Made by a program: the position numbers and the translations under genes. From NCBI RefSeq assembly GCF_963664135.1, contig NZ_OY760905.1:620001-684000 (forward strand): 64,000 bases of DNA. The letters are read 5' to 3'. This document shows positions 33,192 through 54,563 of the stretch, one piece after another. Below the pieces are notes generated by a model, which worked only from the letters and a program-made list of their open reading frames with translations, was not told the DNA's origin and did not search any database. Every line of letters starts with the position of its first letter. Within the stretch, counting starts at the first letter, position 1. This stretch comes from an uncultured Acetobacterium sp. Its GTDB lineage: Bacteria; Bacillota; Clostridia; Eubacteriales; Eubacteriaceae.

Positions 33192-35327
33192 ATGAACGAC
33201 TTCTTTTTCCTCAATGAAGATAGTGAGCAGCATTTCAACGGTATTTTTTCTGTGAGCACAGAATTTCTTTGTATCACTGATGAGCGGGGAAAAATTATGA
33301 AATCAAATCAGGTTTGGGAAACCAAACTGGGCTATCTGACGCCCGAACTTATTGATAAAAATCTCATTGACCTCGTCCACCCCAACGATGTGGCAAACCT
33401 GATTCTGGCCTTTAAAAAACTCTCTGCGGAAAACGAAAATCTGTCACTGACCAGCCGGTTGCGTTCAAATGACGGTTCCTATCGATTTGTAACCTGGCAG
33501 TTTCAATGGGTGGATGGGCTAATTTACAGTTGTGCCAAAGATCTAACCGAACTCTATTATGCAAAAAAAGATGCCGAATCCGCCGAATTTTTAAAAAATC
33601 AACTACTTTCCATTTTAACCGCCGAAATTCATGAACCCCTGGAAAATTTGTCATTGTTTTTGCAGTTAATTAGTAAAACCCGGTCCATCTCGGATCAGAC
33701 TATCTGTCTGGAAAATATCCGGCTTTCCTCAGAATTTCTGGAAAATCTGATTAATGGCATTCTGGTGATCGACAAAAGAAATCAAACCAGCCATGATGTG
33801 AGCACTTTTAATTTTCACAACACCGTTGAAGATGCGATTATCCCCCTTATCGCCAGCGCCAAACGGCATAACATCACCATCGATTTGGCGATTGATCCAA
33901 AAATTCCACCCAATGTCCTGGGGGATGCGCAGCGACTCAAACAGATTATTTCCTATTTAATTCTTAATGCCATTAAATGTCTGGAGCAGGGCAAAATCAG
34001 TATTGAAGTTACTCCTGAAAATACCAGCAAAGCCGTTTTTAAGATTTATTTTAATGTGAAAACTACTGGAATTCCATCCTTAAAAAGTATCACCGATCCT
34101 TTTTTCCGCAACGATCCCAATGGCATAACTACTGAAAATAACCTGAATTTTGTTTTGGAGTTGGTCAAAACACTGGTTGAAACCATGAACGGCAAGCTAT
34201 CTGCCACCCGAGACAGCGAGGATGGTTATGAATTTTCGTTTCATATTCTATTGCTCCGAGATGATATTCACAATACCAAAAACGACAGCAATCCATCCGG
34301 GCGGGTATTGCCGATGTATAATAAAAACATTCGGCTTAAAGAAGAAGAACTGCTGGCAATTGAGCAAATCGGGAATGATCAGGCTAAATCGCATGACAAG
34401 ATTAGTCCTGAAAAAAGACAGCGGATCTTAGTGGTTGACGATTCCCTTGCTAACACCCAATTACTCACCCAAACTTTGATCGAAAATTATGAAATTCTTG
34501 TTGCTAACAGCGGAAAAGACGCCTTAGCCATTGTTCAACAGGTTCCAGCTCCAGATCTGATTCTGCTGGACCTGAGTATGCCGGATATGAGCGGCTATGA
34601 GGTCTGTAAACAAATTCAATTGGAAGAAAGCACCATGGCCATTCCGATTATTTTTCTGACCACTCTGAGTGACACGGAAAATGAAGTTTATGGTTTACCA
34701 TCCGGTGCCATGGATTTTATTTCCAAGCCCTTTGATCTTCCCAGCGTAGCGGAAAAAATTAAAAATCAGCTGGCTCTTAAATACTATCGGGAAATCCTCA
34801 GCATGACTGCCGATACCGACGCATTAACTCAAATCGCCAACCGTCGCCGATTCGAAGAAATATTGGCCATCGAAATTCGCAAAGCCAGGCGCAATAACAC
34901 CCCCTTGTCGGTGATCCGAATTGATATCGACTATTTCAAGTCTTATAATAATACCTATGGACATTTGGAAGGAGACGATTGTCTTCGGGAAGTTGCCAAT
35001 GCCTTTAAAAAAACATTAAAACGGGCCGGTGATCTGGTTGCCCGTTGGGAAGGTGAGGCGTTCGCCTGTCTGCTCCCGGACACTAACTTAAAGGGAGCCA
35101 GTCATGTCGCCGAGAAGATTAGAAAAGCGATACTAAATCTGAGGATTCCCCACCAGTCATCTCCTGGAGAAAAAGTTATCACCATATCACTGGGCGTCGC
35201 CACCGGAGCTAAATCTCATGAAAATTCAGGCGAAGATTCTTTTGAAACCCTTCTCGATCACGCTCAGTCCGCCTTGGCAAAATCAAAACAATCTGGACGA
35301 AATCAGGTTAGTGTTTACAAAAAATAA
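33192..35327 (+). CDS. PAS - pseudo histidine kinase - receiver - degenerate GGDEF protein
   Basis: A 711-residue soluble signalling protein. An N-terminal PAS domain (about 10-120) is followed by a HisKA/HATPase-like module (about 130-365), a receiver (about 412-530) and a C-terminal GGDEF fold (about 545-708). The kinase looks dead. The H-box reads TAEIHEPL, with Ala144 where the phospho-accepting His should be, the DxGxG box is lost (KTTGIPS) and the GxGLGL box is not recognisable (ENNLNF). The receiver keeps its acidic pair D416-D417 and phospho-acceptor D460. The GGDEF signature is EGEAF (620-624) instead of GGEEF, while the I-site R611-AG-D614 is intact with normal spacing. The likely role is a phosphorylation-responsive c-di-GMP sensor rather than a cyclase; this is inference. 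The 457-residue protein at 53.2 kb is a shorter paralogue with an intact GGEEF. GGAAGGGG precedes the ATG. Confidence 0.88.
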   Translation: MNDFFFLNEDSEQHFNGIFSVSTEFLCITDERGKIMKSNQVWETKLGYLTPELIDKNLIDLVHPNDVANLILAFKKLSAENENLSLTSRLRSNDGSYRFVTWQFQWVDGLIYSCAKDLTELYYAKKDAESAEFLKNQLLSILTAEIHEPLENLSLFLQLISKTRSISDQTICLENIRLSSEFLENLINGILVIDKRNQTSHDVSTFNFHNTVEDAIIPLIASAKRHNITIDLAIDPKIPPNVLGDAQRLKQIISYLILNAIKCLEQGKISIEVTPENTSKAVFKIYFNVKTTGIPSLKSITDPFFRNDPNGITTENNLNFVLELVKTLVETMNGKLSATRDSEDGYEFSFHILLLRDDIHNTKNDSNPSGRVLPMYNKNIRLKEEELLAIEQIGNDQAKSHDKISPEKRQRILVVDDSLANTQLLTQTLIENYEILVANSGKDALAIVQQVPAPDLILLDLSMPDMSGYEVCKQIQLEESTMAIPIIFLTTLSDTENEVYGLPSGAMDFISKPFDLPSVAEKIKNQLALKYYREILSMTADTDALTQIANRRRFEEILAIEIRKARRNNTPLSVIRIDIDYFKSYNNTYGHLEGDDCLREVANAFKKTLKRAGDLVARWEGEAFACLLPDTNLKGASHVAEKIRKAILNLRIPHQSSPGEKVITISLGVATGAKSHENSGEDSFETLLDHAQSALAKSKQSGRNQVSVYKK

Positions 35328-35399: not shown

Positions 35400-35801
35400 C
35401 TATTCTGGCCAGCCATATTTCCCTTTCATTTCCACAAAACGGACCAACTCAATAGTTTGTTCATGAATCATCCCTTTTTCATCCTTAAAAACCAGTTTTA
35501 ATTCCTGTAATTCTGGCAGTCCTATGGGAATAGTCATCCGTCCCCCCATAGCCAGTTGTTCCATCAGTTCATCGGGGATTCTACCAGCAGCGGCAGTTAC
35601 CATTATCCGGTCGTATGGAGCGTGTTCAGCCCAGCCATCGCTGCGATCACCGATTTTATAAAAAATGTTAGTATAGCCCACATCATTCAGTCTTTTTTGA
35701 GCAGTTTCAGAAAGCGCGCTGATCCGCTCAACAGTATAAACAGATTTAGAAAATCTAGCCAGCAAAGCAGTCCGATAACCTGAACCAGTGCCAACTGCTA
35801 A
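35400..35801 (-). pseudogene. pcm: Remnant of protein-L-isoaspartate O-methyltransferase
   Basis: The frame encodes LAVGTGSGYRTALLARFSK then VYTVERISALSETAQKRL and ends with PYDRIMVTAAAGRIPDELMEQLAMGGRMTIPIG and a FVEMKGKYGWPE tail. These are motif I, the middle and the C-terminal motifs of Pcm, the SAM-dependent enzyme that repairs isoaspartyl residues. The N-terminal third before motif I (about 75 residues in a normal protein of about 210) is missing, and there is no ATG or ribosome site. The remnant begins directly after, and in the same frame as, the TAG stop of the EFR1 gene. A TTG within it could start a 121-residue product lacking the SAM-binding glycine loop, so an active methyltransferase is unlikely. 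Confidence 0.75.
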
Positions 35802-37029: not shown

Positions 37030-37584
37030 ATGAGTAATTTCGATAATACCAATAACGAATTCGACATCGACCTGCTTGGATTCTTTGACCCAATAAGCCA
37101 GACTGCCAAGCGGAAAAAATTTGACACCATGCTGGCTCAGGAAATTATAAAAGCCAAAAACACGATCAGTTATGTATCACTTTTATTGGTCGAAATCGAC
37201 TATTTTAAGAACTACCTTGACACTTATGGTCACCAGGCCAAAGCAAGTTGTCTGCAGCAAGTTGCTTTTTCTTTAGAAAGTTCTTTTAGACGAGCTGGCG
37301 ATCTGGTTGCTAGATGGGGAGACTCCCAGTTTATCTGTCTGTTGACTGATACCGATTCCAGCGGTGCTGAAAAAATGGGCGAAAGACTAAGAAAAGCAAT
37401 CATGGCGTTAAATATTCCCCATGTTGATTCCCCGGTGGCAAAGATTGTCACGGTATCAATTGGTAGCGTATCAACCATTCTCACAGATGATACTTCCTGT
37501 GATGAACTGATTACCAAAGTGGAACAGGCTTTATCTCATGCCATCGAGATGGGCCGCAATCAGTTCATTGACTGGGAAAAATAA
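37030..37584 (+). CDS. Stand-alone degenerate GGDEF-domain protein
   Basis: A 184-residue protein that is little more than one GGDEF fold (about 35-180) after a short N-terminus. The signature is GDSQF (97-101) in place of GGEEF, so both the second Gly and the catalytic acids are lost. The first metal-site Asp is also replaced (VEIDYF for the usual xDIDYF). The inhibitory-site motif R88-AG-D91 is intact at the normal distance. It should not make c-di-GMP but could bind it. It is closely related to the GGDEF domains at 33.2 and 53.2 kb. The ATG at 37030 follows AAAGGA; an in-frame TTG 18 bp upstream overlaps that site. Confidence 0.83.
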   Translation: MSNFDNTNNEFDIDLLGFFDPISQTAKRKKFDTMLAQEIIKAKNTISYVSLLLVEIDYFKNYLDTYGHQAKASCLQQVAFSLESSFRRAGDLVARWGDSQFICLLTDTDSSGAEKMGERLRKAIMALNIPHVDSPVAKIVTVSIGSVSTILTDDTSCDELITKVEQALSHAIEMGRNQFIDWEK

Positions 37585-37591
37585 CAGCTGA

Positions 37592-37624
37592 CAAAGCCAG
37601 GTTTTAGGTCTGGCTTTTATTTTG
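37592..37624. terminator. Bidirectional terminator between convergent signalling genes
   Basis: AAAGCCAG pairs with CTGGCTTT around a 9-nt loop with T tracts on the plus side. The stop codon of the minus-strand FIST gene lies within it. Confidence 0.8.
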
Positions 37625-39380
37625 TTACTACGCAGTTTCGACCCATACGTTTTGCTTCATAGAGAGCCTTATCGACGCGATCGACAAACATCTCGAATGA
37701 CTCATTCTTTTTATATGCAGTAACACCAAAACTACAGGTCTGGCTAAGGTTCCTTGGAAAAAAGGTCAGTTCGATAATCGCTCGAATCCGTTCTGCAGTA
37801 ATTCTTGCCCCTTCTAAATTCGTTAATGGCATAATAATAAGAAATTCTTCCCCACCCCATCGACTCAACATATCAATCTTTCTGATCTCCAGAGTCAGCA
37901 GTTTTACCAGATGAATGAGAATTTCATCCCCAGCATTGTGACCATAGGTATCATTTACTTTTTTAAAAAAGTCCATATCGAGCATAATAGCTGAAAATTC
38001 CAGATCATAGCGATTATATCGCTCTATTTCGTTTTCAATAAATTCATGGGCCTTCATCCGGTTATAAGCCTGAGTCAGGTAATCCCGTTCGGCCAACCGC
38101 CTAGCTTCGGCATTGGCATCCTCCAACTCTTCTGTAACTACCTTGATAAAATTGACCAGCCGGGAAATAATCCGGGTGTGCTGACTGGTAAAGGGATCCA
38201 AGGATTCTGTTTTGGCAATCCGATTCTCAAATCCAATCACTGGCCGCTTACCTTCGCCCTCTTTCATGCTCACTGCCAACATGGTAGCATTTAGCATTAC
38301 CACCTCTTTACCCTGGGAACAAATTTCACCAAAAGTATAAAATCCTGCGGTGGGTGCAATGGTTTCAAATGGTTTTATTTCTAAATCGACCTCACTCTGA
38401 AGCAAAAACCGCCGACAAATGCATGAATATAGAAAAATTGCTTCCGGATTCAAAATCTGAATATGATTTTGAATGTCTTTAGCTTTTTCAATCATCACCG
38501 CCGGATTGCCATAGCCGATGCAAACCGATTCCCCATCATTAATTTTTGTAATAAATTTTATTTCATTATCGGTATTGACCTCCATCGGAGTCTTGGCATA
38601 TTCAATGCCATTTCGTTTTAGTAAAAGCGGAAATTCAAGCACATTGTAAAAAAAATCTTCATCATTCTGGATATCCAGATAGCGGTAAAAAACATCAAAG
38701 GCCGGTTGATCATCAATCGTCTTGACCCAGAGGCCATCGGTTTCGGTAATCGTCATTTCCTTGCTTAAAGGCTGCCATCCTAAATATGTATAAATATCAA
38801 TGTGAATGTCGTCCCCCATAAAAACAATCGCCAATGCTCCCTTGGCGGTATAATTGTTATTTAAGATGATCAGTGGTTCCTGAACCGCCTCATAATCACC
38901 AGCACCACCACCAAAAACCGGGTAGTTCTGCCTTCGTCCAGCAGTAAAACCCTTAAGGAAATCGGAAACATCCATGGTATAAGGTGTTGCCAGTAGCATA
39001 ACCCCTGCTATGTTATGACATTGATTTTCTATTTTTTCAGCCAACTGTTCTCCCATTGGAGCTTCTGATTGATTTTCTCCAGATATTAAAATGCCCTGAA
39101 CAAGCGTTTTTTCAAAAAATGCAAATGAAATGACCGTTGCATTAATTAATAACTGTCCTTCGGCAATCTCACCCATTGTTGTTGCTCCGACGATCACCCC
39201 CTGTGGTATTGCCGTTCTGAGGATCGATTCAATATCCATCATCCATTTTGGGTCACGTTGAGAAGAAAATATCTGTATAAATACCGATAAAAACCTTTTT
39301 GAATCGTTATTAATTTCACTTAACCGTATCCATTCAGTTAGTTTATCAATTGAATGGATGGTGAGAATTTTTGTGATCAT
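37617..39380 (-). CDS. FIST-domain diguanylate cyclase
   Basis: A 587-residue soluble protein. Residues about 25-210 form a FIST_N domain (GVIVGATTMGEIAEGQ, VFGGGAGDY) and about 215-370 a FIST_C domain (GWQPLSKEMTITETDG, LYSCICRRFLLQ, TAGFYTFGEI). FIST domains are predicted sensors of small ligands, probably amino-acid-like. A helical linker leads to a C-terminal GGDEF domain (about 425-585) with an intact GGEEF at 509-513 and an I-site R500-x-x-D503, so it should be an active, product-inhibited cyclase. GAAGGGAAG precedes the ATG. It is convergent with the degenerate GGDEF gene and divergent from the first chemoreceptor. Confidence 0.9.
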   Translation of the reverse strand: MITKILTIHSIDKLTEWIRLSEINNDSKRFLSVFIQIFSSQRDPKWMMDIESILRTAIPQGVIVGATTMGEIAEGQLLINATVISFAFFEKTLVQGILISGENQSEAPMGEQLAEKIENQCHNIAGVMLLATPYTMDVSDFLKGFTAGRRQNYPVFGGGAGDYEAVQEPLIILNNNYTAKGALAIVFMGDDIHIDIYTYLGWQPLSKEMTITETDGLWVKTIDDQPAFDVFYRYLDIQNDEDFFYNVLEFPLLLKRNGIEYAKTPMEVNTDNEIKFITKINDGESVCIGYGNPAVMIEKAKDIQNHIQILNPEAIFLYSCICRRFLLQSEVDLEIKPFETIAPTAGFYTFGEICSQGKEVVMLNATMLAVSMKEGEGKRPVIGFENRIAKTESLDPFTSQHTRIISRLVNFIKVVTEELEDANAEARRLAERDYLTQAYNRMKAHEFIENEIERYNRYDLEFSAIMLDMDFFKKVNDTYGHNAGDEILIHLVKLLTLEIRKIDMLSRWGGEEFLIIMPLTNLEGARITAERIRAIIELTFFPRNLSQTCSFGVTAYKKNESFEMFVDRVDKALYEAKRMGRNCVVTK

Positions 39381-39773: not shown

Positions 39774-42700
39774 ATGAACGAAAATCTAGAACCAGACCTG
39801 AATTCTGAAATGCATAATGTATCGGAATCAATTCCGAACAACAGTGCAAATCAACAAGAAGTTTTCTCTGAAAAGGAATACAGGAGAATACGCATCTCCA
39901 CAAAATTACTGGTATTCACTGTTGCACTTGTTGCGCTGGCCGTATTTTCTCTTGGACTGATTACCGTTAATCTGGGAGCAGCGGCACTTACTAATCAGGC
40001 CAACGCCGATTCACAGGAATATGCCACTCAGGGTGCTGCCCATGTTGGAGCCATCATCATCGGAAATCTGGCTACTCTCAGTGAAGTTGCATCCTTGGAT
40101 CAGGTATCCTCAATGGACTGGAATATTCAGGTTCCAACCATCGCAGACGACGTTGATCGTCTCGGCTATCAGGATATTGCAATTATGAATCTTGCCGGCC
40201 ATGGTAAATACATCAAAGGCGGCGGCGAATTTGATTCTGCTGGTGAATTCTGGTACGAGGACGGATTAAAAGGTGAACTGGTGGTTTCTGATGTTGCCAT
40301 CAGTAAGGTTACCAAAGAACCCGTAGTTTTTGATGTGGCTCCGATAAAAAATAATGGGCAAGTCGTTGGACTGCTGGTAGGTCGACGAGATCCCACCTTC
40401 CTCCAGGATACCACTAATGCAATGGGCGACGGCGAACGCCAATATGGTTTTGTTGTCAATGAAGATGGTGCTATGATGTCCCATCCTGATTCCCAGGCGA
40501 TTCTGGATCAGGTCAATGTCTTTGATGACATCGAAAAAGACGGTGTCTGGAAAAGTTTTGGTTTAGCTTTAAAAGAAATGGGAACCAGCCAAACTGGAAT
40601 GCTTACGTATACGGTAAATGGTCAAACCAAAATCGGTGCTACCTCACCAATCCCAGGAACGAATTGGACTCTGGTTGTGTCTCAATATGAAAATGACGTA
40701 TTAGCTCCAATTACCAGCCTGCGAAACCTGATTATTTTAATTTCATTCGTCATTCTTTTAATTGGCGGAATTGCGGCCTATGTTATGGCAAAAAAACTCT
40801 CAAATCCCATTATCAAACTCAAAGAAGTCGCTGATCAGGTGGCAGTGGGAAAAGTCGATGTGGACATCAAAATCACAACTCATGATGAAATCGGTGACTT
40901 AATGCGTTCCTTTGAAACAATGATCAGAAACAACAAAGGCATGGCTGATGCAGCCCAACGAATGGCTCAGGGTGATTTTGAAGTTGAAATCGTCCCGCGA
41001 TCTGATGACGATGTTATTTCCAACTCAATGATTGCTGTGGTTGGTGAAATGAACCGCGTACACGATGGCATCTTAAAAATAGGCAATGCTGCTCTTCAAG
41101 GTCAGTTAAACTACCGGGGCAATACCAATGAATACACCGGTGCATACAAAGATTTAATTATCAGTTTAAATAATGTTATTAACACCTTTGTAAAACCATT
41201 AAAGGTGGCTAATAAGGCCATTGAACGAATTGGACATGGCGTGATTCCACCAAAAATCACCACCGATTACAAAGGCGATTTTAATGATCTTAAGAATAAT
41301 ATTAACGCCTGCATCGATGGTTTGGGCGCTTTAACCGAAACCGGAGAAGTCCTCCACCGATTGTTTATCAATGATTTTTCTGCTAAAATGGAAGGCACTT
41401 ATTTGGGAGTATTTGGCGATCTGGCCACCTCCGTTAACGAAATCCACTGGAAGCTCAATTACATTCATTCCATTGTCAACAATGTTTCCAACGGTAATAT
41501 GAGCGATTATAACGAACTGGTGTCGATTGGTAAACGTTGTGAAGAAGATGAATTTATCCCGAGTCTCATCAAAATGATTGAAAATATTCACTCACTGGTT
41601 AATGAAGCGGATGAAATGACCCAGCTGGCGGTTGAGGGAGAACTGGATCACCGGGGCGACCCCAGTAAATTCCGGGGCGAATATGCCAAAGTCATCGCCG
41701 GCTTTAACCAAACCCTTGATGCAGTTATTGAACCTATTCAAGCCGCGTCGGGGGCCCTGGATGAACTAGCCAAAGGTAATCTGAATATTATTATGGACGG
41801 TGATTATAAGGGTCAACACGGCAAGATAAAAGAAGACATGAACCGCACCATTAATTTTCTCAAACACTATGTGGAAGAAATTACCAATACCCTCCAACGC
41901 ATTGGTGAAGGGGATCTCAGTCAGGAAATAACGACTTATTACCATGGCGATTTTGTTGATATTAAGCTGGCAATTAATGGTATTACGACACATTTAAGCA
42001 AAGTTATGAAAGAAATCGACGACGCTGCCGGACAAGTCGAAACTGGGGCTATCCAAATATCTGACGGTGGTCAGGCACTGTCTCAGGGTACTACTGAACA
42101 GGCCAGCTCCATCCAGGAACTCACCGCTTCCATTGAAGAAGTGGCTGCTGAAACCAAACGAAACGCCATGCACGCCAATGATGCCAACGCACTTGCCATT
42201 GAGGTACGAACCAATGCTGAAGTCAGTAATACGCAAATGGCTAAAATGGTTACTGCGATGGTGGAAATCAATGAGTCATCCAGCAATATCTCCAAAATCA
42301 TCAAGGTTATTGATGATATCGCCTTCCAGACCAATATTCTGGCCCTCAACGCCGCCGTAGAAGCAGCCAGAGCCGGACAACATGGTAAAGGTTTTGCAGT
42401 AGTAGCTGAGGAAGTTCGATCACTAGCCGCGCGTAGTGCTGAAGCTGCCAAGGAAACGACTGGATTAATTGAAGGCTCCATTGATAAAGTCGAAGTTGGT
42501 ACCAAAATCGCTGACGAAACTGCCGAAAGTCTGGTTGAAATTCTCAATAATATTGAAAAAGTGACTGGCCTGGTTGGCAATATCGCCCGGGCTTCAAATG
42601 ATCAGGCTTCGGAAATTGCCCAGATAACCAAAGGGATTGAGCAAGTATCCAATGTTGTTCAAACCAACTCAGCAACAGCTGAAGAAAGTGCCGCTTCCAG

Positions 42701-42884
42701 CCAGGAACTATCCGGCCAGGCTGAAATGCTTAAGCAGATGATGAGTAACTTTAAACTCAAAAATGAAAAAGGCAATGACCGTGTCGAAAATAAAATTAAA
42801 GCTAAACCATCTGAGCCGGTGACCAAGGATATCCCGCCGAACCCCCGGATCATATTGGACGATTTGGAAAATGATAAATATTGA
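39774..42884 (+). CDS. Methyl-accepting chemotaxis protein with dCache-like sensor
   Basis: A 1036-residue chemoreceptor. A 40-residue cytoplasmic N-terminus precedes TM1 (about 44-66). A large outside dCache-like sensor follows (about 70-310, with DIAIMNLAGHGKYIKGGGEF and TNWTLVVSQYEND), then TM2 (about 318-342) and HAMP. An unusually long cytoplasmic stretch (about 345-735) holds several HAMP-like repeats with recurring (A/V)xxGxLxxRG and DYKGDF/DYKGQHG motifs. The methylation and hairpin-tip region (about 750-985) contains DDIAFQTNILALNAAVEAARAG, the CheA/CheW contact. A linker and the tail IILDDLENDKY end the protein. A strong AAGGGGGG-type ribosome site precedes the ATG. The cytoplasmic half is nearly duplicated in the next gene. 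Confidence 0.94.
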   Translation: MNENLEPDLNSEMHNVSESIPNNSANQQEVFSEKEYRRIRISTKLLVFTVALVALAVFSLGLITVNLGAAALTNQANADSQEYATQGAAHVGAIIIGNLATLSEVASLDQVSSMDWNIQVPTIADDVDRLGYQDIAIMNLAGHGKYIKGGGEFDSAGEFWYEDGLKGELVVSDVAISKVTKEPVVFDVAPIKNNGQVVGLLVGRRDPTFLQDTTNAMGDGERQYGFVVNEDGAMMSHPDSQAILDQVNVFDDIEKDGVWKSFGLALKEMGTSQTGMLTYTVNGQTKIGATSPIPGTNWTLVVSQYENDVLAPITSLRNLIILISFVILLIGGIAAYVMAKKLSNPIIKLKEVADQVAVGKVDVDIKITTHDEIGDLMRSFETMIRNNKGMADAAQRMAQGDFEVEIVPRSDDDVISNSMIAVVGEMNRVHDGILKIGNAALQGQLNYRGNTNEYTGAYKDLIISLNNVINTFVKPLKVANKAIERIGHGVIPPKITTDYKGDFNDLKNNINACIDGLGALTETGEVLHRLFINDFSAKMEGTYLGVFGDLATSVNEIHWKLNYIHSIVNNVSNGNMSDYNELVSIGKRCEEDEFIPSLIKMIENIHSLVNEADEMTQLAVEGELDHRGDPSKFRGEYAKVIAGFNQTLDAVIEPIQAASGALDELAKGNLNIIMDGDYKGQHGKIKEDMNRTINFLKHYVEEITNTLQRIGEGDLSQEITTYYHGDFVDIKLAINGITTHLSKVMKEIDDAAGQVETGAIQISDGGQALSQGTTEQASSIQELTASIEEVAAETKRNAMHANDANALAIEVRTNAEVSNTQMAKMVTAMVEINESSSNISKIIKVIDDIAFQTNILALNAAVEAARAGQHGKGFAVVAEEVRSLAARSAEAAKETTGLIEGSIDKVEVGTKIADETAESLVEILNNIEKVTGLVGNIARASNDQASEIAQITKGIEQVSNVVQTNSATAEESAASSQELSGQAEMLKQMMSNFKLKNEKGNDRVENKIKAKPSEPVTKDIPPNPRIILDDLENDKY

Positions 42885-43642: not shown

Positions 43643-46378
43643 TTGAAGTGGTTAAAAGATTTAAAAATCAAAACAAAATTATTGGCATCGTTCATTTTCA
43701 TTGCGCTATTAGTCGGTGTTGTTGGTGGTATGGGTATTCTGAATACCCGTGCTCTTCAGGATTCTGACAAGGAATTGTATGGAAACATGACTGTGCCCAT
43801 CTCTCAGGTCGGAGAAATGTCGACTGAATTTCAAATGATGCGTGTGTCACTGCGAGATATGATTCTTGCTAACGATGCCCAAACTATTCAGAGTATCAGG
43901 ACAAATATTACTGAGCAACAAACAAAAATTGATGAATTGGCTGCAGAATATGAAAAATCCATTGAAAGCGAAGAAATGCGCCAATCATTTGAAACATTTA
44001 CTAAAACAAAGTTGGACTATACTAAACAACTTGACCTTGTCATGAACCTGGCGACCCAAAATCAAGATACTGAGGCCTTCATCGCCATAAATCCTGATAG
44101 TACTGCCGGAAAGGCAACTGTTGCCCTCCAAGATGCCATTAACAACCTGTCAACCATGAAACTGGATGAAGGTCTTGCTAAATCAGTGGAAAACAGCAGT
44201 CAGGCTGACCAGGTGGTCACCACCATGTCTATTATTATGGCTGTCAGTATGATTCTAGCCATTGCTCTGGGACTATTACTGAGCTCACTGATCAGTACTC
44301 CGCTTAAAAAAGCCAGCCATATGATTCATGAAATGAGTAAGGGACATTTTGGCAATCGCCTGAAAATGGATAGTCAAGACGAAATTGGCGAAATGGCTGA
44401 TGCCATGGACAGTTTTTCCGATGACCTCCAGCACATTGTTATTGGAACCATGAATCAGATTTCCAATGGCGATGTCTCTGCCAACATTGAACTAAAAGAT
44501 CCTTTAGATGAACTGGCTCCTGCCCTGAAGAAAACCATTGAAACCATTCGCGCCCTCATCACTGAAGCCAATCTGTTGTCTCAGGCAGCTGTTGAAGGAC
44601 GTTTGGATACCCGGGGACATGCTGACCAGTTTGCTGGTGGGTTCAAAGATATTGTCTCAGGCGTTAACAGCACGTTGGATGCGGTTGTCGGTCCCCTCAA
44701 TGTCGCCGCTGAATATATTGAACGGATTGGCAAAGGTGAAATCCCTCCTAAAATCACTGATGAATATTATGGGGATTTCCGTGAAATTAAAAACAATCTC
44801 AATGCCTGTCTTGATGGATTAAGTGCCTTGACGACTGCCGACCACACTCTTAAATTGATGAATAAAAACGATTTATCTCAATCCATCGACGGAAATTTCG
44901 ATGGTATTTTTGGGGAAATTGCAGTCTCTATCAACGGTGTGCATGCCCAGCTTGGTCGAATTGTCAATATAGCAACCAACATTCATAATGGCGACCTCAG
45001 TGATTTGGACTTCTTACGAAGTATTGGTAAACGAAGTGAAAATGATCAGCTGGTACCGGCCCTCCTGGGGATGACTGAAACCATTAACCTGCTGGTTGAA
45101 GAAACCCAAAATATGGCCAAGCAGGCCATCGACGGTGATTTAAACAATCGCGGGGATGCCACAAAATTCCAGGGCGAATATGTAACGGTCATCGAAGGCT
45201 TTAACCTCACCCTTGATGCCGTTATTGATCCCATTAAAGTGGCCTCAACTACTTTAAAAGAATTGGCTCAAGGACATCTCAGCATTACAATGGAAGGAAA
45301 TTTCAAAGGCCAGCATGGAATCATCAAGCATGATATGAATCAAACCATCAATTTCTTAAAAGCGTATGTGGAAGAAATTACGCACACACTGGAAGAAATG
45401 GGTCGAGGGAATTTTGATCTTGAAATTACCAATCTATTTTGTGGTGACTTCTTAGCTATTAAAATAGCCTTAAATGAAATTTCCGCAAATCTAAGCACTA
45501 CCTTGTCTGATATCAATGTTGCCGCAAGCCAGGTTGAAATTGGTGCCCAGCAAATATCCGACGGCGGTCAGGCATTGTCTCAAGGTACCACTGAACAAGC
45601 CAGTGCAATTCAAGAACTGACTGCTTCCATTGAAGAAGTCGCCTCGGAAACTAAACAAAATGCGGTTAATGCCAACCAGGCCAATGAATTAGCCATCAGT
45701 GTCCGTTCCAATGCCGAAGTTGGCAATGCTCAAATGGTCAGAATGGTATCAGCCATGAGTGAAATTAATGATTCGTCTTATAATATTTCTAAAATCATCA
45801 AGGTGATTGACGATATTGCTTTCCAAACCAATATACTGGCTCTTAATGCGGCCGTGGAAGCCGCCCGAGCTGGACAACATGGCAAAGGTTTTGCTGTGGT
45901 TGCCGAAGAAGTTCGTACCCTGGCTGCCAGAAGCGCTGAAGCAGCCAAAGAGACCACTGGTCTGATTGAAGGATCGATTGATAAGGTGGATGTCGGTACT
46001 AAAATTGCTGATGAAACCGCTGAAAGTCTTTCTGAAATTCTCAAGCAAATCGAAAAAGTCACGACTTTGGTCGGCAGTATTGCCCGGGCATCTAATGATC
46101 AAGCTTCAGAAATTGCCCAGATCAATCAGGGTGTCGAGCAAGTCTCACAGGTCGTCCAAACCAATTCTGCCACTGCCGAACAAAGTGCCGCTGCCAGCCA
46201 GGAACTCTCGGGTCAGGCTGAAATGCTCAAGCAAATGGTGGAAGCTTTTAAATTAAAAGATGTGAGTAGGAAACAGCCAAATAGGGCCATCGCTGAGGTA
46301 AACGTCAACGAAACCATGTCAGCACCTCCACCCCAACCTGAGATCATCTTAGATGATCTGGACTTTGATAAATATTAA
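43643..46378 (+). CDS. Methyl-accepting chemotaxis protein with four-helix-bundle sensor
   Basis: A 911-residue chemoreceptor. TM1 is near residues 10-32 (FIFIALLVGVVGGMG). An outside four-helix bundle sensor (about 35-190) follows, then TM2 (about 193-215) and HAMP. The long run of HAMP-like repeats has the same motifs as the neighbour (IERIGKGEIPPKIT, DLNNRGDATKFQGEY). The signalling hairpin contains DDIAFQTNILALNAAVEAARAG and the tail is IILDDLDFDKY. From about residue 230 on it is highly similar to chemoreceptor 1, but the sensors differ in type, so the pair arose by duplication plus sensor exchange. The start is TTG at 43643 with GGAGG 8 nt upstream. No che genes are in the window. Confidence 0.94.
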   Translation: MKWLKDLKIKTKLLASFIFIALLVGVVGGMGILNTRALQDSDKELYGNMTVPISQVGEMSTEFQMMRVSLRDMILANDAQTIQSIRTNITEQQTKIDELAAEYEKSIESEEMRQSFETFTKTKLDYTKQLDLVMNLATQNQDTEAFIAINPDSTAGKATVALQDAINNLSTMKLDEGLAKSVENSSQADQVVTTMSIIMAVSMILAIALGLLLSSLISTPLKKASHMIHEMSKGHFGNRLKMDSQDEIGEMADAMDSFSDDLQHIVIGTMNQISNGDVSANIELKDPLDELAPALKKTIETIRALITEANLLSQAAVEGRLDTRGHADQFAGGFKDIVSGVNSTLDAVVGPLNVAAEYIERIGKGEIPPKITDEYYGDFREIKNNLNACLDGLSALTTADHTLKLMNKNDLSQSIDGNFDGIFGEIAVSINGVHAQLGRIVNIATNIHNGDLSDLDFLRSIGKRSENDQLVPALLGMTETINLLVEETQNMAKQAIDGDLNNRGDATKFQGEYVTVIEGFNLTLDAVIDPIKVASTTLKELAQGHLSITMEGNFKGQHGIIKHDMNQTINFLKAYVEEITHTLEEMGRGNFDLEITNLFCGDFLAIKIALNEISANLSTTLSDINVAASQVEIGAQQISDGGQALSQGTTEQASAIQELTASIEEVASETKQNAVNANQANELAISVRSNAEVGNAQMVRMVSAMSEINDSSYNISKIIKVIDDIAFQTNILALNAAVEAARAGQHGKGFAVVAEEVRTLAARSAEAAKETTGLIEGSIDKVDVGTKIADETAESLSEILKQIEKVTTLVGSIARASNDQASEIAQINQGVEQVSQVVQTNSATAEQSAAASQELSGQAEMLKQMVEAFKLKDVSRKQPNRAIAEVNVNETMSAPPPQPEIILDDLDFDKY

Positions 46379-53021: not shown

Positions 53022-53189
53022 TGTATGAACTAAATAATTATTATTGAAACCTTATCATTATTGCGTTTATAAACACCTATAAATAGTAACAACTCGTGAT
53101 CAATTAGCTGAAATCTTAGGGTTATAAACAATCCATTGCTTTCATTTAAATAACTCACAGATTTAAATTAATGATTGGAAAAACTGCCT

Positions 53190-54563
53190 ATGGAAAATTT
53201 TTACGCCACTAATACTCCAGCACAGATATTAAACCGAATTTTTTCCCTGAATCTTGATCTTTTATGTATTCTTTCGATTCAAGGCCAATTCGAAAAAGTC
53301 AACGTTGCCTGGGAAAGAATCTTTGGGTATTCCCCGGAAAAACTGGAAGAAACTAATATTATCGATTACGTTCATCCCGATGATCGGGATGCCACTGTCT
53401 TTATTTTTTCTGAATTGATTCATACCAGCCACCGCCTCACCTTTTCTAATCGTTTTCGATCTGATGATAACTCTTACAGATACATCGACTGGGAATTTAA
53501 TCGGCATGACGACTATGTCTATGTAGCCGGAATCGATATTACCCATACCAAACTCTCAGCCATTGGTCTTCAAGAAGCGCGAAAACACCTTGAAGAATCG
53601 CATATTCAAACCGCACTCCGAGAACTCTGTCCGATTCGTCAAAAAATCCTGGTTGTGGATAATTCCCCATTGAACACCAAAATACTGGAAACAGCCTTGA
53701 GTAAGGATTATGAAGTATTAATTACCCACAATGGCAAAGAAGCTTTGTCCATTTGTAATTCCGACGATCCTCCTGATCTTATTCTTTTGGATATTATCAT
53801 GCCGGAAATGGATGGCTATGAGATTTGTAACCGCTTGAATCAGGGGATAAAGACAAAAGATATTCCGGTAATCTTCCTCACCTCGCTGACTGCCGCCAAT
53901 GATATTGAATACGGTTTAACACTGGGGGCCATCGACTATATCACCAAACCTTTCAGTGTTCCTATTATCAGGGCTAAAATAAAGAATCATCTCGCCTTAA
54001 AATATTATCAGGATACTTTAAAAATAAACACAGATGTTGATCAGCTTACCCAAATTGCCAATCGTCGTCGGTTTGACGATACTATGACCCAGGAAATTAA
54101 AAAAGCCAAACGAACCGGGACAATTCTATCCATTCTTTTAATTGACATTGATCATTTTAAATTTTACAATGACACCTATGGTCATCTGGAGGGTGACACC
54201 TGTCTTAAAAAAGTCGCCTCGGCCCTTTCAAGCACCCTCAAACGCCCCAGGGATCTAGCTGCCCGGTGGGGCGGTGAAGAGTTCGCCTGCCTACTGCCCA
54301 ATACCAACGCAAAAGGTGCTGAAAATGTCGCTGAATCTTTAAGAGCAACCATCCAAAATTTAGCAATCCCTCACGATTCATCTCCAATTCAGGGTGTCGT
54401 CACTATTTCTATCGGTGTTGTAACATCCAACCCGATGGACGAAAGCTCCTTTGATAATCTATTGAAACGATCGGATGAAGCCCTTTACCTGGCCAAGGAA
54501 GCTGGACGAAACCGGATTGCCGTTTGGCATGAGGACATTGAATCAATGGGACCCTACCTCTAA
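53190..54563 (+). CDS. PAS - receiver - GGDEF diguanylate cyclase
   Basis: A 457-residue protein with an N-terminal PAS domain (about 10-120), a receiver (about 145-265) with phospho-acceptor D201 in LILLDIIMPEMDGYE, and a GGDEF domain (about 290-450). The signature GGEEF is intact (361-365) and the I-site is R352-PR-D355, so it should be an active cyclase of the response-regulator (PleD/WspR-like) kind. The first acidic residue pair of the receiver reads VDNS rather than VDDS. It is a shorter paralogue of the 711-residue protein at 33.2 kb, which has an extra kinase-like module. The ATG at 53190 is chosen over an in-frame TTG at 53175, but neither has a strong ribosome site. Confidence 0.9.
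   Translation: MENFYATNTPAQILNRIFSLNLDLLCILSIQGQFEKVNVAWERIFGYSPEKLEETNIIDYVHPDDRDATVFIFSELIHTSHRLTFSNRFRSDDNSYRYIDWEFNRHDDYVYVAGIDITHTKLSAIGLQEARKHLEESHIQTALRELCPIRQKILVVDNSPLNTKILETALSKDYEVLITHNGKEALSICNSDDPPDLILLDIIMPEMDGYEICNRLNQGIKTKDIPVIFLTSLTAANDIEYGLTLGAIDYITKPFSVPIIRAKIKNHLALKYYQDTLKINTDVDQLTQIANRRRFDDTMTQEIKKAKRTGTILSILLIDIDHFKFYNDTYGHLEGDTCLKKVASALSSTLKRPRDLAARWGGEEFACLLPNTNAKGAENVAESLRATIQNLAIPHDSSPIQGVVTISIGVVTSNPMDESSFDNLLKRSDEALYLAKEAGRNRIAVWHEDIESMGPYL

Follow-up and report, generated by a model that had tools for sequence, protein, structure and literature searches.

A cyclic di-GMP receptor candidate built from a degenerate hybrid kinase and a degenerate GGDEF domain in Acetobacterium

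What is the use of a signalling protein that has the layout of a hybrid histidine kinase fused to a diguanylate cyclase, and in which signature residues of both enzymes have been replaced? Such a protein, of 711 amino acids (aa), is encoded on the + strand by the open reading frame (ORF) 33192-35327 of the window, i.e. the whole 64,000-nucleotide stretch analysed here (positions 620001-684000 of the 4.08-Mb single-contig genome of an uncultured Acetobacterium sp.). An earlier note, made from the letters of this DNA, had proposed a receiver-gated sensor or scaffold for cyclic di-GMP (c-di-GMP). That is still the best reading, and comparison of related sequences tips the balance somewhat towards a catalytically dead hybrid kinase-cyclase that would work as a c-di-GMP receptor.

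The five-part architecture claimed for the protein is borne out by Pfam, which places PAS at residues 14-99 (35.6 bits, cut-off 22.6), HATPase_c at residues 244-353 (E 8.6e-10), Response_reg at residues 412-523 (E 3e-24) and GGDEF at residues 540-705 (E 8.2e-47), all above cut-off; HisKA, at residues 135-196, is sub-threshold (18.9 bits, cut-off 26.9). The domain order is PAS-HisKA-HATPase-REC-GGDEF. Ala144, D416-D417, D460, RAGD 611-614 and EGEAF 620-624 are located as the earlier note had them, and T490 and K512 of the receiver are intact as well. Among 25 of 138 matched NCBIfam models, only the GGDEF domain model passes its cut-off, and every equivalog scores below its own. The best solved match is PleD (PDB 1w25, 9g85), over residues 411-706 with E ~3e-54; PleD differs in having GGEEF and two receiver stretches in alignment with the hybrid. 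The features of the hybrid are:

33192..35327, + strand: hybrid protein, 711 aa, PAS-HisKA-HATPase-REC-GGDEF (ORF, Pfam)
33231..33566, + strand: PAS domain, residues 14-125 (Pfam PAS / PAS_3; outer boundaries by eye)
33579..33782, + strand: degenerate HisKA, residues 130-197 (Pfam sub-threshold, alignment)
33621-33623, + strand: Ala144 codon GCC at the phospho-acceptor position (alignment)
33801..34271, + strand: degenerate HATPase, residues 204-360, with the first N-box Asn, the G1 Asp and the G2 glycines lost (Pfam, alignment; outer boundaries by eye)
34416..34781, + strand: receiver domain, residues 409-530 (Pfam, alignment)
34806..35312, + strand: GGDEF domain, residues 539-707 (Pfam, PleD structure match)
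35022..35033, + strand: inhibitory site (I-site) R611-A-G-D614, aligned with RAID of PleD (alignment; 10/10 orthologues)
35049..35063, + strand: degenerate signature EGEAF, residues 620-624 (alignment, codons)

The kinase looks dead throughout the family, one copy excepted. Orthologues were collected from 19 Acetobacterium genomes, the window's included, and the hybrid is found in 11 of them, with scores of 602 bits or more; a PAS-REC-GGDEF paralogue comes next, at 374 bits. The phospho-acceptor position of the H-box is occupied by Asn in seven of the 11 orthologue rows, by Thr in two, by Ala in one and by His in one, and the sole His copy (draft genome G010, locus L039) is interrupted four codons on by an in-frame TAA. 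The G1 Asp is absent from all 11, and columns 289-292, where it might have been placed, contain no Asp. The ATP-site boxes had been called unrecognisable. When the protein is aligned with three hybrid kinases from its own genome that carry SHEIRTP, this holds for G1, which has lost the Asp and one Gly, and for G2, which reads NLNFVL in the window protein versus GSGLGL or GTGLGL in the three kinases. The last Gly position of G2 is Val in the window protein and two others, Gly in seven and Ser in one. The N-box, in contrast, is half kept: its second Asn (259) is present in 10/11 orthologues, and the position of the first is Tyr in nine and Phe in two. In the receiver, D416 and D417 are invariant in the 11 rows, and D460, T490 and K512 in each of the 10 rows long enough to include them. 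With the H-box, G1 and G2 residues lost and the receiver residues kept, self-phosphorylation is not expected, and phosphorylation of the receiver from outside is possible.

As judged from the alignment, decay of the cyclase signature is stepwise. None of the 10 orthologues that reach the GGDEF domain has a canonical GG[DE]EF: EGEAF is found in two (the window's genome and G009), EGEEF in five (G018, G004, G013, G015, G016), and QGEEF (G006), DGEEF (G010) and SGQQF (G017) in one each. The first Gly is missing from 10/10 hybrids and kept in 12/12 members of the paralogue clade; the fourth-position Glu is lost only in two lineages, the window's species (Ala, two genomes) and G017. The window protein is altered at signature positions one and four only. 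Its codons, GAA GGT GAG GCG TTC, compare with GGC GGT GAA GAG TTC in the paralogue at 53.2 kb, so the substitutions GGC to GAA and GAG to GCG had been read correctly. A sequencing error is indeed unlikely, since the same-species draft G009 (98%) shares the EGEAF codons, though it has Thr at 144, and since the full-length ratio of nonsynonymous to synonymous substitution rates (dN/dS) is 0.17 with G009 and 0.19 with G018. According to the available part of a study of the cyclase VCA0965, only A, G, M and H are active at position one, and changing the fourth-position Glu to Ala (AGDEF to AGDAF) abolished activity (PMC3974145). By these rules the window protein would combine a non-permitted residue at position one with an inactivating change at position four, although the same study allows that rules may differ from cyclase to cyclase (PMC3974145).

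The earlier note had asked whether Ala144 and EGEAF are conserved along with the RxxD motif of the I-site, and had held that relatives with an intact H-box and GGEEF would argue for a recent loss. Only RxxD is conserved (10/10); Ala144 occurs in 1/11 rows, and EGEAF in 2/10, both from one species. As none of the 10 orthologues has GG[DE]EF and the single His copy carries a stop four codons on, the losses of the kinase and of the first Gly are not recent, and it is the fourth-position change from Glu to Ala that is confined to one species.

Receptors of the degenerate-GGDEF kind are defined in the literature consulted by RxxD, with a secondary Arg as supporting rather than defining evidence. 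RxxD stands five residues before the signature in 10/10 hybrids, where it aligns with RAID of PleD, and in all 11 copies of a stand-alone GGDEF protein encoded nearby; the signatures of both proteins (EGEAF and GDSQF in the window) depart from GG[DE]EF. It is the orthologue-wide conservation of RxxD, rather than its bare presence, on which this sequence-based receptor assignment rests.

Purifying selection acts on the hybrid gene taken over its full length. Its full-length dN/dS is 0.14 with G006 and 0.12-0.20 over eight pairs. The HATPase domain gives 0.18 (G009), 0.19 (G018) and 0.12 (G006), with a range of 0.07-0.24 over eight pairs, and the GGDEF domain 0.12-0.31 in seven pairs. Because the dead HATPase domain changes slowly, the kinase module is probably used as a scaffold. 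All nine copies that are complete on their contig, the window's included, have an open frame; the G010 copy lies on more than one contig and contains a single in-frame stop, and in G008 the contig ends within the receiver. The hybrid was not found in eight of the 19 genomes of the genus, seven of which are at 98-100% completeness. Full-length relatives come from Acetobacterium and one 'Firmicutes bacterium' metagenome-assembled genome, the closest at 98% and 94%. Among the per-genome best matches in the order (67 genomes, including the 19 from the genus), none outside the genus is full length, and the best of these (G021, 300 bits) covers REC-GGDEF only. It is a 341-aa REC-GGDEF protein from another family of the order (contig 183, 3226-4128), and gene transfer is possible; the next match outside the genus scores 179 bits.

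The second degenerate GGDEF gene, which the earlier note did not mention, lies 1.7 kb downstream of the hybrid:

37030..37584, + strand: stand-alone degenerate GGDEF protein, 184 aa, signature GDSQF (ORF, Pfam, alignment)
37291..37302, + strand: I-site R88-A-G-D91 in the stand-alone protein, with R and D unchanged in 11/11 copies (alignment)
53175..54563, + strand: PAS-REC-GGDEF paralogue, with GGEEF and RPRD intact, outside the degenerate pair (Pfam, alignment)

Its start is most likely ATG 37030 and not the listed TTG 37012, because relatives have Met at the same place. Copies were found in 11/19 genomes of the genus (at least 244 bits, versus 204 for the next match) with a query model built from nine of these 11 copies. 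In this clade none of the 12 catalytic (A-site) columns is invariant, the metal, guanine and phosphate positions beyond the signature not being kept either, and both I-site columns are invariant, versus 31/159 columns overall. The chance that both I-site columns would be invariant at random is ~0.037 (31/159 x 30/158), so that the evidence from this invariance is moderate. In the paralogue clade, used as a control (12 rows, among 13 such matches listed), 12/12 A-site and 2/2 I-site columns are invariant. A tree of 38 GGDEF rows separates the stand-alone (support 100/99), hybrid (97/94) and paralogue (95/94) clades. The dN/dS of the stand-alone gene is 0.32 with G018 (15 nonsynonymous and 12 synonymous changes) and 0.30 with G009 (eight and seven). 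The best reading of these alignments is that the protein is a second dead GGDEF domain kept for its I-site, and a candidate c-di-GMP receptor.

The two degenerate genes travel together for the most part. Both are present in 10 genomes, on one contig and 1.1-1.9 kb apart in nine and on separate draft contigs in G009; G008 has the hybrid alone (contig end), and in G002 a locus that is alike in other respects carries the stand-alone gene but not the hybrid. Where contigs allow, the order is purine-synthesis genes (by eye), a metallo-hydrolase-like gene (232 aa in relatives; the window's ORF has 252 aa and no Pfam match), the hybrid and then further genes, namely a 4Fe-4S protein gene on the opposite strand followed by the stand-alone GGDEF gene.

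How might the hybrid work? A separate kinase or a small phosphodonor would phosphorylate its receiver in trans, and the receiver would in turn set the protein's dimer state, as happens in PleD. The I-site would bind c-di-GMP supplied by canonical cyclases encoded elsewhere in the genome, and the dead kinase module would serve as a platform for dimerisation and docking. The stand-alone protein may act in the same pathway. A more elaborate version, in which the phosphorylation-gated pseudokinase-pseudocyclase and the stand-alone pseudocyclase form one receptor, cross-linked by I-site-bound c-di-GMP dimers, is speculative and on present sequences improbable; if true, it would read the receiver signal and the level of the messenger together, without an enzymatic step.

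Several observations weigh against a receptor. In the active cyclase PleD the substrate site includes D327, N335, D344, K442 and R446, which serve metal, guanine and phosphate binding, and K332. The first five are kept in 10/10 hybrids and K332 in nine, and 8/12 catalytic columns are invariant in the hybrid clade, so that, outside the missing GG[DE]EF, the alignment has the residues of a functional cyclase, more of the substrate site than a pure receptor would seem to need. The secondary I-site contacts are not conserved in the hybrid clade: the place of PleD R390 (SgmT R794) is taken by Lys in three (the window protein among them), Asn in five and Ile in two, and that of R386 by His in all 10; in the stand-alone clade, R390 corresponds to Lys in seven, Arg in three and Glu in one. 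RxxD is also found in 12/12 of the paralogue clade, and in the genome at large it is not enriched among degenerate GGDEF domains (7/22, versus 21/46 canonical; Fisher P 0.31), so that inertia could account for part of its retention. The GGDEF domain of the closest pair, the window's and G009's, has dN/dS of 0.93, a value that comes from three nonsynonymous changes and one synonymous change and was not used. Finally, I-site substitutions in SgmT altered localisation and not motility or development, in the available text of that study, which suggests that a real I-site need not give a plain phenotype (PMC3509222).

Other explanations were weighed as well. Most hybrids of the genus might still be weak cyclases, with receiver-controlled c-di-GMP synthesis in [EQD]GEEF orthologues and a recent loss of activity restricted to G017 and the window's species. 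GEEF is retained at positions 2-5 in 7/10 rows, together with most metal, guanine and phosphate residues, and weak activity in those orthologues is thus conceivable; this much qualifies the sensor-or-scaffold proposal of the earlier note. Changes at the first position are tolerated in some cyclases, to A, G, M or H in VCA0965 and to S in ECA3270, but E, Q, D and S are not among the active first residues of VCA0965, as far as the accessible text of that report goes, and though such rules may be cyclase-specific (PMC3974145). The first Gly, moreover, is lost in all hybrids and kept in all paralogues, and we regard this explanation as rather unlikely.

It is doubtful, on the sequences compared, that the dead GGDEF domains are regulatory subunits, modulating a live cyclase such as the 53.2-kb paralogue by dimerising with it or with one another, the I-site acting in a mixed dimer. 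A live cyclase requires two GGDEF domains, and three related clades, two degenerate and one canonical, have members within ~21 kb; the degenerate pair is, however, not strictly coupled, as G002 has the stand-alone gene without the hybrid. That the gene is simply on its way out, selection having relaxed after loss of the kinase and the cyclase now going too, would fit the stepwise loss of catalytic residues, the eight genomes where no hybrid was found, the orthologue with an in-frame stop, and the high ratio, on four changes, in the EGEAF pair. The open frames of all nine complete copies, the low full-length dN/dS in eight pairs and the lack of any dN/dS excess in the dead HATPase domain make this highly improbable.

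Receptors of the kind preferred here, with c-di-GMP bound by a degenerate GGDEF domain, are already known, and the comparisons that follow draw on the accessible portions of the papers cited. SgmT of Myxococcus xanthus (sensor-kinase-REC-GGDEF) has the signature GGGVF and binds c-di-GMP via RHPD; it shares with the hybrid the domain order, the predicted cytoplasmic location and a degenerate signature with intact RxxD, and differs in its GAF domain, where the hybrid has PAS, and in an active kinase with a required His (PMC3509222). This His is absent from the window protein, and found in 1/11 rows; the GGDEF part may work like that of SgmT, but the hybrid, by its sequence, is no SgmT-type kinase. 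PopA of Caulobacter, a c-di-GMP receptor, likewise joins a receiver to a degenerate GGDEF domain with RxxD, but is REC-REC-GGDEF without a kinase module (PMC10333796, PMC3509222). PssE of Listeria, a Firmicute, has a degenerate GGDEF domain (DKDDA) with RxxD, binds c-di-GMP with Kd 0.79 micromolar, and is a model for the stand-alone protein; it sits in an exopolysaccharide gene cluster (PMC4125290), whereas the six neighbouring proteins scanned in the window have no such Pfam function. CdgA (Bd3125) of Bdellovibrio has the degenerate signature GVNEF and RxxD, no cyclase activity and a c-di-GMP Kd of ~2 micromolar; it has another cellular role in another species, and the text available mentions no kinase remnant (PMC3271064). 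What seems new is the apparently dead kinase across the family together with a conserved degenerate neighbour, a combination for which no description was found in titles and abstract openings of the open-licence PubMed Central (PMC) literature, among the matches listed.

Other observations concern the locus and its relatives. Two contig-end pieces of G013 might derive from a live relative of the hybrid: L118 688-1350 is PAS-HisKA with an intact SHEIRTP H-box, and L050 1-1449, at a contig start, has receiver-like, receiver and GGDEF stretches with GGEEF and RPGD; in this draft they may or may not form one gene, and they were left unjoined. ORF 35400-35765 is a remnant (121 aa) of a protein-L-isoaspartate methyltransferase that has 202 aa in G018 (L062 8212-8820); its Pfam match covers the 210-position profile only from position 100 on, and its neighbours are ~234 bases closer together. 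The loci of G006, G013, G004, G010 and G017 showed no match to this methyltransferase. The FIST-GGDEF gene that adjoins the stand-alone gene is whole in the window (587 aa, 37617-39380) and split into two ORFs in G006 (L063 9974-11681). Downstream are two chemoreceptors with HAMP_2 repeats (39774-42884 and 43643-46378), and a relative of the former is near the stand-alone gene in G010, G015, G016 and G002. Riboswitch control at the locus was considered and rejected, as no Rfam match in the whole of the window reaches the gathering threshold.

The genome as a whole has 69 GGDEF matches, 67 of them over cut-off; of the 68 that cover the motifs, 46 are canonical and 22 degenerate, and RxxD is found in 28. 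There are 22 EAL matches (18 near full length), one PilZ match and two MshEN matches, HD-GYP and other receptor families being outside the search. Twelve c-di-GMP-I riboswitches, next to two sub-threshold c-di-GMP-II matches, suggest that the messenger is in use. Many likely makers of c-di-GMP are thus set against few recognisable protein readers. By title, none of the matches listed from the open-licence PMC literature deals with c-di-GMP in Acetobacterium or with a diguanylate cyclase of A. woodii. The conserved degenerate GGDEF pair provides two concrete c-di-GMP receptor candidates in an acetogen with few recognisable readers, and the graded series EGEEF, EGEAF and SGQQF, beside a clade in which both sites survive, offers a natural test of the change from cyclase to receptor.
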